DNA from: Promicromonospora thailandica
GTDB taxonomy: Bacteria > Actinomycetota > Actinomycetes > Actinomycetales > Cellulomonadaceae
Direction: 5' to 3'
NCBI RefSeq assembly: GCF_024171955.1
Contig: NZ_JAMTCS010000004.1
Location: 186,001-250,000, forward strand
DNA length: 64,000 bases
Shown here one piece after another: positions 20,634-24,037 of this stretch. Positions within the stretch are counted from its first letter, which is position 1, and every line of letters begins with the position of its first letter. Made by a program: the position numbers and the translations under genes. The notes under the pieces were generated by a model that saw only the letters and a list, made by a program, of their open reading frames with translations, had not been told where the DNA came from and searched no databases.

Positions 20634-20695
20634 CTTCGAGACCGAGGTTGCTTCGCTTTGACGGCCGTCAAAGCGAAGCAACCTCGGTGTCGAAG
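20634..20695. repeat. 62-bp near-perfect palindrome between M20 gene and hutF
   Basis: Bases 20641-20688 are a perfect 48-base palindrome with no loop (arms of 24). One mismatch (20640/20689) separates it from six more pairs, CTTCGA with TCGAAG, giving 30 of 31 pairs over 62 bases. It lies 24 bases before the hutF start on the transcribed strand. In RNA it would be an extreme hairpin, able to act as attenuator, processing site or stabiliser. Its unit (CCGAGGTTGCTTCGC) is not like the neighbouring G+C-rich spacer. See the findings for its possible relation to the repeats at 21161 and 46209. Confidence 0.95.
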
Positions 20696-20744: not shown

Positions 20745-22364
20745 TCACCGTGCGCCGCCGACGCCGGGCGGTGCGGGGGCGGCCGAGGCGGCCGGGCCGG
20801 TCGGTGCCGTGAGCAGGTCGGCCAGGACTGCGGTCAGGGCCTGGACCCCGGCGGCGCAGTCGTCCGGGTCGGCGTGCTCGGCCGGCGAGTGGGAGACACC
20901 GGTCGGGTTGCGGACGAACAGCATCGCCGTCGGGACACCGGCCGCGGCGAGGATGCCGGCGTCGTGCCCGGCGCCCGTGCCGATCACGGGGGCGGGCAGG
21001 TCGGATCCGGGCCGCCCGACGAGGTCGGCCAGGCGCGCCGCGAGCACCGGGTCGAAGACGGTCGCGGGCGTCCACGACTCCTCGACGAGCTCCCACCGCC
21101 GGAGCCCGTCCGGCGCACCACCTCCCGCCAGGACGCTGTCACCCCCAGCGACCCCGCCACCGACTGCAGAGTTCGTCCCGCCATCGCCGACTGCAGACTT
21201 CGTCACGCCCAGGCCGCCCGACGCCGTCAGCAAGTCTGCAGTCGACGGCCGGTCCGAGAGAATGTCTGCAGTCGACGGCCGACGCGTCGAGAAGTCTGCA
21301 GTCGACGGGGCGCGACCGCCCGGCACCGAACGGAAGTCTGCAGTCGACGACGGCGCCGGCCCGCTCCCGCCCGTCAGGACCGCGCGGACCGCCGCCTCCG
21401 TCTCGCCGCGGGCGTCGATCCACGCCCGGACCCGGGACGGGATCGCGTTGACGCCGTTCGGCTCGACCTCGACCTTGGCCAGCGTCGCGAGCGCCCCGGC
21501 CTGCTCGGCGGCGGCGCGTACGTCGGTGATGAGCCGCGCCAGGTCGAGCATCGGGTCGTGGCGGTGGGCCAGCGGCGTGGTGCCGGCGTGGTTGGCCTCG
21601 CCCGCGAGGTCGACGCGCCAGCGTCCGTGCGGCCAGATCGCGGCGCCGACGGCGACCGGTGCCGCCTCGTCGGACACCAGGTCGGCGAGGTACCGGCCCT
21701 GCTCCACGTGCAGCTCGACGAAGACGCCGACCCGGGCCAGGGCCTCGGGGTCGTGCCCGTAACGATCGATCCGGACGCCCGCGTCCCGCCCCAGCACGTC
21801 CGCGAGCGTGTCCCCGGCCCCGTCGCGCAGCCCGAGCAGCCGTTCCGCGGGCACCGTCCCGGTCAGCGCCCGCGACCCGAGGCACGCCAGCCCGAACCGT
21901 GCGCCCTCCTCGTCGGAGAAGTTCACGATGCCCAGCGGACGCAGGGGCATGACGCCCGAAGCTCGCAGCGCGTCGAGCGCCGCGAAGGCGCCGGCCACGC
22001 CGAGCGGCCCGTCGAACGCGCCGCCGCCCGGCACCGAGTCGAGGTGGCTCCCGGTCACGACGCCGGGGCCGTCGGCGTCAGGGTCGCCCCACCAGGCCCA
22101 CTGGTTCCCGGCGCGGTCCACCGTGACCGCGAGCCCGCGCGCGGCCGCCTCCGCGGCGAACCACTCGCGCAGGGCCAGGTCGTGCCCCGTCCAGGCGAAC
22201 CGCTCGTAGCCGCCGGACGGCGCCCGCCCGACGTCGGCGATCGCCGCGAGCAGGCCGTCGACGCCGGTCAGGCCCGACGCCGCGCCCGGCTCCGCACGCC
22301 GACCGCCGCCGAACGTCCCGCCGCCGGACGCCCCGCCGAAGAGCGCCCCGCCGGAACCCGTCAC
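20745..22364 (-). CDS. M20-family amidohydrolase (allantoate-amidohydrolase-like), with repeat insertion
   Basis: The 539-residue metallohydrolase has M20/allantoate amidohydrolase signatures: [45 protein letters not shown] and a late GAGHDAG, so all metal ligands appear present. In this operon, between hutU and hutF, its likely role is hydrolysis of N-formylglutamate (or a related N-substituted amino acid), replacing HutG; that is inference. It starts at GTG 22364, overlapping the hutU stop (GTGA). Relatives are about 410-430 residues; this one is longer through a Gly-rich N-terminal part and an in-frame low-complexity stretch (about residues 330-418) with repeated PSTAD motifs encoded by a DNA repeat. 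Whether it still folds is unknown. Confidence 0.88.
21161..21350. repeat. Six-copy PstI/SalI-like repeat inside the M20 gene
   Basis: The core CTGCAG occurs at 21164, 21191, 21236, 21266, 21296 and 21338. The last four copies share AAGTCTGCAGTCGACGG (with small changes); the first two read CGACTGCAGA in the opposite orientation. Copies 2 and 3 form 13-base inverted arms (21188-21200 and 21232-21244). Spacing is irregular (27-45 bases). On the coding strand the units read as PSTADF/PSTADI/PSTADL or, inverted, KSAVGDG/NSAVGGG, and none interrupts the frame. Confidence 0.92.
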
Positions 22365-24037
22365 GCCCCCTCCCCCATCGGCACCCGCAGCCCGCCACGC
22401 CCGGCGGCGGCCACGGCGTCGTCGTACCCGGCATCGACGTGCCGCAGCACGCCTGTCGCGGGGTCGTTCGACAGGACGCGCGCGAGCTTCTCCGCCGCGA
22501 GCGACGTGCCGTCCGCCACGGACACCTGCCCGGCGTGGATCGACCGGCCCATGCCGACGCCCCCGCCGTGGTGCAGCGACACCCACGTGGCGCCCGACGC
22601 CGTGTTGACCAGGGCGTTCAGCAGCGGCCAGTCCGCGATGGCGTCCGAGCCGTCGGCCATGGCCTCGGTCTCCCGGTACGGCGAGGCCACCGAGCCGGAG
22701 TCGAGGTGGTCACGCCCGATCGCGACCGGCGCGGAGATCTCGCCCGATGCGACGAGCTCGTTGAACCGCAGCCCCGCGACGTCGCGCTCCCCGTGCCCGA
22801 GCCAGCAGATCCGGGCGGGCAGCCCCTGGAACGCGACCCGTTCCTGGGCGGCGCGGATCCAGCGGCCCAGGTGGTCGTCGTCGGGGAACAGGTCGAGCAC
22901 GGCCCGGTCGGTCACGGCGATGTCGCGCGGGTCGCCGGACAGCGCCGCCCACCGGAACGGCCCCTTGCCCTCGGCGAACAGCGGCCGGATGTACGCCGGC
23001 ACGAACCCCGGGACGTCGAACGCCCGCCCGTACCCGCCCTGCCGGGCCTCGTCGCGGATCGAGTTGCCGTAGTCGAACACCTCGGCCCCCGCGTCCTGGA
23101 ACCCCACCATGGCCTCGACGTGCCGCGCCATCGACTCCCGGGCGCGCTCGGTGAACCCCTCCGGATCCTTCTCCGCGAGCGAGGCCCAGTCCGCAAGCGC
23201 CACCCCCGACGGCAGGTACGACAACGGGTCGTGCGCCGAGGTCTGGTCCGTCACGACGTCCACCTCGACGCCGCGGCGCAGCAGCTCCGGCACGACGTCG
23301 GCCGAGTTGCCGACCACGCCCACCGACAGCGCGCGCCGTTCGCGCTTGGCGGCCAGCGCCAGCTCCAGCCCCTCGTCGAGAGACGACGCGACGACGTCGA
23401 GGTACCGCGTCTCGACGCGCCGCTCGAGGCGGGCCGGGTCGACGTCGACCACCAGGCACACGCCGCCGTTGAGCGTGACGGCGAGCGGCTGCGCCCCACC
23501 CATGCCACCGCAGCCGCCGGTCAGGGTGAGCGTGCCGGCGAGCGTGCCACCGAACCGTTTGGCGGCCACCGCGGCGAACGTCTCGTACGTGCCCTGGAGG
23601 ATGCCCTGCGTGCCGATGTAGATCCACGACCCCGCTGTCATCTGCCCGTACATGGTCAGGCCGAGCTGCTCCAGGCGGCGGTGCTCGGGCCACGTGGCCC
23701 AGTCGCCCACCAGGTTGGAGTTGGCGATGAGCACGCGTGGCGCCCACTCGTGGGTCCGCAGCACGCCCACGGGGCGGCCGGACTGCACCAGGAGCGTCTC
23801 GTCCTCGCGCAGGTCCGTCAGCGACCGGACGATCGCGTGGTAGCTCGGCCAGTCGCGCGCCGCACGGCCGGTGCCGCCGTAGACGACCAGGTCGTCGGGC
23901 CGCTCGGCCACCTCGGGGTCGAGGTTGTTCATGAGCATGCGCAGCGGCGCCTCGGTCTGCCAGCTCCGCGCGGTGAGGGTGGTGCCGCGCGGGGCGCGGA
24001 CGGCGACGGGGGTGCCCCGGTCGTACGGCTCGTTCAT
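22361..24037 (-). CDS. hutU: Urocanate hydratase
   Basis: HutU adds water to urocanate to give imidazolone propionate, the second step of histidine degradation, using tightly bound NAD+. The 558-residue product has the family hallmarks [14 protein letters not shown] near residue 50, [14 protein letters not shown] near residue 175, DQTSAHDP and [13 protein letters not shown]. Length fits the family. The start ATG 24037 has AAGGAG six bases upstream. It is 29 bases behind hutH and overlaps the M20 gene by four bases, so hutH-hutU-M20 are one transcript. Confidence 0.97.

Follow-up and report, generated by a model that had tools for sequence, protein, structure and literature searches.

The window analysed here, a stretch of 64,000 nucleotides (64 kb) from Promicromonospora thailandica, contains a gene for an M20-family hydrolase of 539 amino acids on the minus strand (20745..22364; PF01546, E 1.4e-20). 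The urocanase gene lies 5' of it (22361-24037), and the two genes on its 3' side encode amidohydrolases (Amidohydro_1). These neighbours are in keeping with a hut operon. When the window was searched for the unit AAGTCTGCAGTCGACGG with up to three mismatches, six sites were found, compared with 0.20 expected, and six were reached in none of 100 shuffles. All of them are located within 21157-21350, two on the minus and four on the plus strand, and all six CTGCAG-cored units lie inside the minus-strand open reading frame ending at 20745. Thus, the arrangement given in a preliminary description of this DNA was recovered, as were its repeat peptides: PSTAD(F/I/L) is encoded four times and (K/N)SAVG(D/G)G twice.

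The two minus and four plus units make up the window copy of a module designated family A. An outer half-site (21157..21173) and an inner half-site (21184..21200) on the minus strand are followed on the plus strand by an inner half-site (21232..21248) and three outer half-sites, two of them after steps of 30 bp (21262..21278 and 21292..21308) and the last after a step of 42 bp (21334..21350). The inverted inner half-sites form the core palindrome (21186..21246), with core starts 46 bp apart. Steps between same-strand units in the window (27, 30, 30 and 42) are all multiples of 3, compared with 11 of 47 in intergenic A copies; therefore, some in-frame tandem duplication probably occurred. The orthologue alignment placed the units in a variable linker of the hydrolase (residues about 331-421; 21102..21374, minus strand). 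Linker lengths were measured between shared anchors in 86 of 86 loci. The window protein has 91 amino acids between these anchors, three Promicromonospora loci have 46-58, and 83 homologues of other genera have 3-25 (median 15). Thus, the segment at about residues 330-418, which had been proposed to be an insertion, is an in-frame insertion unseen in other genera, and none of the 83 other-genus homologues shared it as conserved protein.

The unit is dispersed in the window's own genome (G000, 5.38 Mb), where 58 sites were found with up to two mismatches, compared with 9 for the reversed control pattern. Family A modules follow a constant order: one or more minus cores about 30 bp apart, a fixed distance of 46 bp to the first plus core, and further plus cores about 30 bp apart; in one G000 module, the inner distance was 45 bp instead of 46. 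The ordered entity is the whole module and not the single unit. As the preliminary description had noted, the unit is coding in both orientations; this holds because the module is a palindrome, and not through separate insertions both ways. As a palindrome, the core module spans about 57-61 bp; in congeners it reads G-TCGA-CTGCAGAC-TTGGTTGCGG-loop and back, and the inner arm of G000 differs somewhat from theirs. A sister family, B, has the arm GTCGA-ACGTAGGG-TTGGTCGCTC and the same layout and spacing as A. In a partly redundant list, the inner 25-mers start 36 apart in 26 of 27 A pairs and 35 apart in 87 of 95 B pairs. The arms of B covary (0.199 vs 0.127; 0/500 shuffles), and no covariation was found when looked for in the arms of A. 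Therefore, the behaviour of A is that of a pair of inverted half-sites, and that of B is closer to a hairpin. An RNA-hairpin reading of family A was rejected for lack of covariation.

The B pattern matched in 12 of 13 genomes of the genus. Per genome, it had 1-108 matches in 11 genus genomes, compared with 0-3 in 110 other-genus genomes of the family, and the A pattern had 0-2 matches in each of 46 other-genus genomes. Thus, among the genomes searched, families A and B are restricted to Promicromonospora. Many palindrome families are present in this genus; a 10-mer-based clustering joined unrelated ones by chance, and its family sizes were not used. One further family, C', occurs in the window between the M20 stop codon and the next gene (20634..20695), with six copies in 303,880 bases of G000.

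In the fetched loci, 99 element clusters of at least two half-sites were counted (23 A and 76 B). A codon-based gene finder placed 15 in genes, 1 at the edge of a stretch and 83 between genes; two of the 84 placed outside genes, the M20 copy of G003 (the edge case) and the TilS copy of G012, are genic after all. In tandem gene gaps, 10 of 11 A and 32 of 38 B copies lie nearer to the upstream stop than to the downstream start, and 3 A and 9 B copies lie in divergent gaps. Since the loci were picked for holding A or B or for surrounding the M20 gene, these counts are not genome-wide rates. As most copies in the examined loci are intergenic and near 3' ends, this is mainly an extragenic palindrome family: A, B and further families were shown to be dispersed palindromes, mostly just past stop codons and in some cases in protein linkers. 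The element family postulated from the window alone does exist, but it is mostly intergenic, and the second family B and the flanked nuclease-like gene described below lay beyond the view of the preliminary description.

The linker of the M20 protein was read in the 12 genomes in which an orthologue was found. It contains A in G000, G008 and G002, A-like remnants in G001 and G009, B in G011, G003, G005, G007 and G012, a weak trace of B in G006, and no recognisable element in G004. On a six-protein tree (midpoint rooting; weak nodes of 35, 61 and 68), carriers of A and B interleave; therefore, the element type at this linker changed more than once. Two more genes were followed over 12 genomes, with G010, which was unreadable for both, left out. 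In TilS, family B is present in frame in three of the 12 readable genomes (G009, G012 and G000), decayed to a trace in G002 and absent from the other eight. In the linker of a fused ABC ATPase, it is present in nine of 12, decayed in G008 and absent from G012 and G001. The TilS and ABC linker lengths are all divisible by 3. Single cases were found at the C-terminus of a second ABC ATPase and in a heparinase-like gene, with orthologues outside the comparison. The copies outside M20 are read in one frame, mostly (V/A/G)ERR..PTF(D/G), those in M20 in another (SNVG..GLRS), and the third frame, as read from the arm sequence, contains a TAG stop. Thus, in-frame palindromic insertions missing from orthologues elsewhere occur in unrelated protein genes, i.e., those for the M20 hydrolase, the fused ABC ATPase and TilS.

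The codons of these insertions were compared with those of their surroundings. The ABC elements, of which nine of ten could be excised, including the decayed one of G008, contained 75 rare codons where 10.6 were expected, compared with 27 and 15.2 in the flanking linker. Without G008, both GAA (5% usage) and CGT (6%) were kept in 8 of 8 elements. The TilS elements contained 36 rare codons compared with 5.1 expected, and their flanks 9 compared with 3.5. Since rare codons were kept across species in both genes, the DNA itself is maintained; in-gene copies were shown to keep their DNA sequence beyond the needs of the protein. Copies also resemble each other more within than between genomes, for A (24 elements) and for B (80), with none of 2000 shuffles being as strong. 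The in-gene copies were closer to other copies of their own genome in 6 of 8 cases for ABC, 3 of 3 for TilS, 3 of 5 for M20 B and 2 of 2 for M20 A, some genomes offering only one own copy for comparison. This resemblance fits ongoing recognition or conversion; it would be accounted for in part if species-specific copies had spread recently.

Among the G000 loci, the largest A array brackets a gene encoding 333 amino acids, a homologue of which is bracketed by A in G003 and by B in G010. G000 has four paralogues of this nuclease-like gene and four palindrome families. The first has family A palindromes on both sides. The second has GAGAACGACCT palindromes, the 3' copy lying past the neighbouring gene, and the third is flanked on each side by a CCAACCCAGTCAT-type palindrome, of which the 3' one overlaps the end of the gene. 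Just 5' of the fourth (L388) lies a palindrome of family C'; no 3' copy was found in the flank of this gene. Thus, each paralogue was shown to be accompanied by a palindrome family of its own, which for three of the four is present at both flanks. The new finding is that A palindromes and B palindromes alike flank genes of one type, encoding AbiEi-like winged-helix, Vsr-type-nuclease-like proteins.

Genus-wide, 53 gene matches were found in 12 of 13 genomes; the only genome without one, G001, is also nearly devoid of A and B. Of the 53, two short fragments were not counted, and the 49 genes analysed include four whose matched stretch is interrupted by a stop or frame break (L427, L429, L430 and L433). 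A matched flank repeat, i.e., a 36-bp stretch agreeing between the 5' and the 3' flank at 28/36 or better, was found for 31 of 49 genes, with 18 missing the threshold, and for none of 194 similarly sized control genes, which were drawn from the A/B loci and the hut-region loci of this genus. At a looser 26/36, the numbers were 39 of 49 and 11 of 194. Across the order, homologues at E 1e-15 or better are present in 60 of 149 genomes, a count that includes the genome of the window. Among 29 loci outside the genus, the best-scoring with one per genome, 20 passed 28/36, compared with 1 of 294 control genes; the 20 loci span five families, including Promicromonospora's own. At 26/36, 23 of 29 passed, compared with 36 of 294. 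In G032, of which 300 kb were sampled, three of five flanking families had one dispersed relative each, as judged by shared 11-mers only. Since the gene was first noticed in loci picked for A or B, its association with palindromes rests on these later protein-based searches. A plasmid search gave no match, a PHROGs search gave none, and among the open-licence PMC papers listed by the literature searches, neither a title nor the opening of an abstract connected palindromic repeats with AbiEi- or Vsr-like genes.

Toward its N-terminus, the protein was matched by PADLOC AbiEi models (down to E 1.4e-13), and Pfam AbiEi_4 was above its cut-off in one of five proteins. The C-terminus gave sub-threshold matches to MTES_1575, with none of the five proteins over the Pfam cut-off (best 21.0 bits vs 38.2). 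The MTES_1575 family has a Vsr-type restriction-nuclease fold, as stated in PMC3710099. A loose R-x-D..E-x-D pattern, in any frame, was present in 49 of 49 genes, and D245, E259, D261 and H266 of the R-x-D..E-x-D..H motif were invariant in 16 of 16 aligned proteins. We take the R-x-D..E-x-D motif to resemble that of Vsr-like nucleases. The domain assignments are weak; the protein is described here as AbiEi-like winged-helix and Vsr-type-nuclease-like, and nuclease activity is predicted from its sequence. The PDB sequence search returned seven matches (E 0.36-0.74), the top two being abortive-infection proteins matched at the winged helix, and NCBIfam gave one match far under its cut-off. An AlphaFold2 model computed without alignment had a mean pLDDT of 37 and was not used. 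Two side observations concern the ends of these genes. The C-terminal end of the B-type gene of G004 (L397 1517-1605) continues into a B element (VERRGGRFMGAHEATTPTLGG), and family B therefore seems to have hit its own gene. In L393, L395 and L400, the last codons of the B nuclease genes (NVG..VAL, stop) appear to stem from the 3' B palindrome, one arm of which is read there in the M20 frame.

Nuclease type and palindrome type were found to be paired. For the 45 of 49 genes that have a palindrome (the four without were left out), 71 of 94 nuclease pairs with at least 65% identity had a palindrome in common, compared with 16 of 857 pairs below. Nuclease and palindrome similarity were correlated (Mantel r 0.63; 0/2000 shuffles), the correlation being confined to close pairs and vanishing below 60% identity (r 0.01). 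Thus, close nuclease relatives were shown to share a palindrome and distant ones not. Nuclease genes are mostly found at one locus per family; therefore, the gene does not look mobile within the genus, and since related genes mostly occupy the same locus, shared flanks are partly inherited. One locus holds a GAGAACGACCT gene with its palindromes in G000 and G008 and a B-type gene with B in six other species; hence, the palindromes changed along with the gene. In G002, the A locus has a single A module and lacks the gene. In a comparison that takes no account of species kinship, the eight genomes whose B locus holds a B-type gene all had 25-95 B matches, and all five without had 0-19. Two of the eight B-type genes (G006 and G012) have no B palindrome alongside, and G000 retains about 12 B loci without a B-type nuclease. 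A matches do not follow the A nuclease, with 8 in G002 without the gene and 2 in G008 with it.

That the window units belong to a dispersed element is very probable. Somewhat better than even confidence is placed in the overall explanation, according to which the six units are one in-frame copy of the palindromic element family A of Promicromonospora, and the chance that the nuclease drives the palindromes is judged to be about even. Other explanations bear on different parts of the evidence. The palindromes may be host regulatory or structural sites, i.e., operators, terminators or stabilisers of mRNA 3' ends, and the nuclease-like protein an autoregulated DNA-binding protein merely using two of them. 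AbiEi antitoxins bind inverted repeats in their own promoter, which suits this account, as do the closeness of elements to stop codons in tandem gaps, the covariation of B arms and the conservation at synonymous sites that a binding site would show. Copies inside the coding linkers of the M20, TilS and ABC genes speak against it, as do those in divergent gaps and the presence or absence of elements among congeners, not all cases of which are clean; moreover, A-for-B exchanges at the same site misfit fixed regulatory sites. On balance, host sites appear rather unlikely.

Alternatively, the palindromes could be inert selfish repeats, MITE- or REP-like, left by an extinct or unidentified transposase, with the nuclease link being secondary and the genes lying in permissive, palindrome-rich spots. 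Palindromic families without visible transposase are known, such as the CGTC REPs (PMC3733652), the genus holds many palindrome families, and G000 keeps B copies without the cognate nuclease. Inert repeats are expected to decay, yet in-gene copies common to many species keep their rare codons; none of the 194 controls from palindrome-rich loci of the genus had matched flank repeats at 28/36; and it is close nuclease relatives, not distant ones, that have a palindrome in common. This account is regarded as quite improbable. It is hardly credible that the M20 linker simply grew a short peptide repeat by replication slippage, as a coding minisatellite. The same-strand spacings in the window, all multiples of 3, suit slippage, but the window also has inverted units, whose fixed inner spacing recurs in intergenic copies at other places of this genome and in other species, and the dispersed genome-wide copies refute it as a full explanation.

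The favoured reading is that of family A as an element moved by a REPtron-like system in which the nuclease would replace the RAYT. The half-sites would be bound by the AbiEi-like winged-helix part, and the nuclease-like part would nick or cut at or near them. Repair may then copy the palindrome to new sites and re-copy it at occupied ones. In coding sequence, only insertions of a frame-preserving length in a surface linker would survive, as suggested for M20, TilS and the ABC fusion. A target-site duplication, which together with terminal inverted repeats would mark a MITE of a DDE transposon, was not visible in 43 net-empty comparisons of 368 inspected by eye, some of which were not clean and in which the junctions had diverged. 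Taken further, and with slightly less than even confidence, the data may point to an unrecognised class of self-spreading DNA in Actinomycetota. In it, a gene for a winged-helix/Vsr-type nuclease, enclosed by long palindromes of its own, would seed solo copies genome-wide, rewrite them in concert as specificity drifts, swap gene and palindromes jointly at one locus (B-type vs GAGAACGACC-type) and slip in frame into enzyme linkers. To our knowledge, the RAYT transposase is the one engine that is well supported for dispersed bacterial palindromes, and for many families no engine is known. Since a gene of another type is bracketed by matched palindromes, both in Promicromonospora and in four further families of the order, and since its close relatives share a palindrome, a second engine is directly testable. 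If true, this would explain how Rickettsia-like elements end up in frame in proteins and why the same linker is targeted repeatedly.

BOX elements of pneumococcus and ERIC are modular or long imperfect palindromes with variable numbers of inner units. Compared by description, the Promicromonospora layout differs from these by a central inverted pair with outer direct half-sites and by a candidate cognate gene. With the AbiE antitoxin AbiEi, the nuclease-like protein shares the N-terminal winged-helix region, and it differs in its C-terminal R-x-D..E-x-D motif and in the palindromes beside its gene. The closest parallel in proteins is given by the Rickettsia and Wolbachia palindromic elements (RPE/WPE), which, as described in PMC3767692 and PMC10969869, are found in frame in many unrelated genes, in exposed segments, at the same locus in orthologues and in several families per genus. 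The preliminary description had drawn the Rickettsia parallel, and it proved apt: the Promicromonospora palindromes are many-copy, in frame in linkers, at the same site in orthologues and in several genes, a likeness of description with no claim of sequence kinship. They differ in size, with a core module of about 57-61 bp plus half-site arrays instead of 100-150 bp, in being mostly intergenic in GC-rich actinobacteria, and in flanking a nuclease-like gene, which has no RPE/WPE counterpart in the available text of PMC3767692 and PMC10969869.

Palindromes inserted in frame are the subject of PMC3767692, PMC10969869 and PMC3733652, which describe them from Rickettsia, from Wolbachia and from other genera with REPs. 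The last of these portrays GTAG and CGTC REPs as dispersed palindromes near 3' ends that prefer convergent and tandem gaps and are in some cases intragenic; they are defined by an unpaired GTAG or CGTC tag and a stem of 5-13 bp (GTAG) or 8-9 bp (CGTC), and the cognate gene of GTAG REPs is flanked by its own repeats. It reports tagged REPs in eight phyla; the word Actinobacteria is absent from it, and untagged REP-like repeats of M. tuberculosis are mentioned. As in a REPtron, the Promicromonospora cognate gene is flanked by the same repeats as are dispersed, but the gene is of another type. Unlike GTAG and CGTC REPs, the palindromes are symmetric with arms of about 25 bp, and they lack the combination of tag and short stem. 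A search for RAYT (HUH Y1 transposase, PF01797) was negative in all 13 genus genomes and positive in 5 of 14 control genomes; RAYT was thus rejected as the driver.

Further palindromes were noted in passing. In 10 loci comprising 66,209 bases, no Rfam family scored above gathering. A near-perfect palindrome of 75 bp (AGATAGAACTCTGGCGAAGTAGAACTCTGGC..) at window positions 46245-46319 resembles one in L277 and probably represents yet another family. In the hut region, palindromes of 54-62 bp occur at about 102 per Mb in Promicromonospora (L219-L238 and the window), compared with 16.7 in 77 loci of other actinobacteria. Similar palindromes lie on both sides of the M20 homologue of Pseudactinotalea (L170 2877 and 4196), which was the sole control gene over 28/36 outside the genus. 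Palindromes of the form GGTCGAGC..GCTCGACC, which we presume to be common in Micrococcales, were seen at L302 7661 and at L236 about 880, and they may be the same kind of element.
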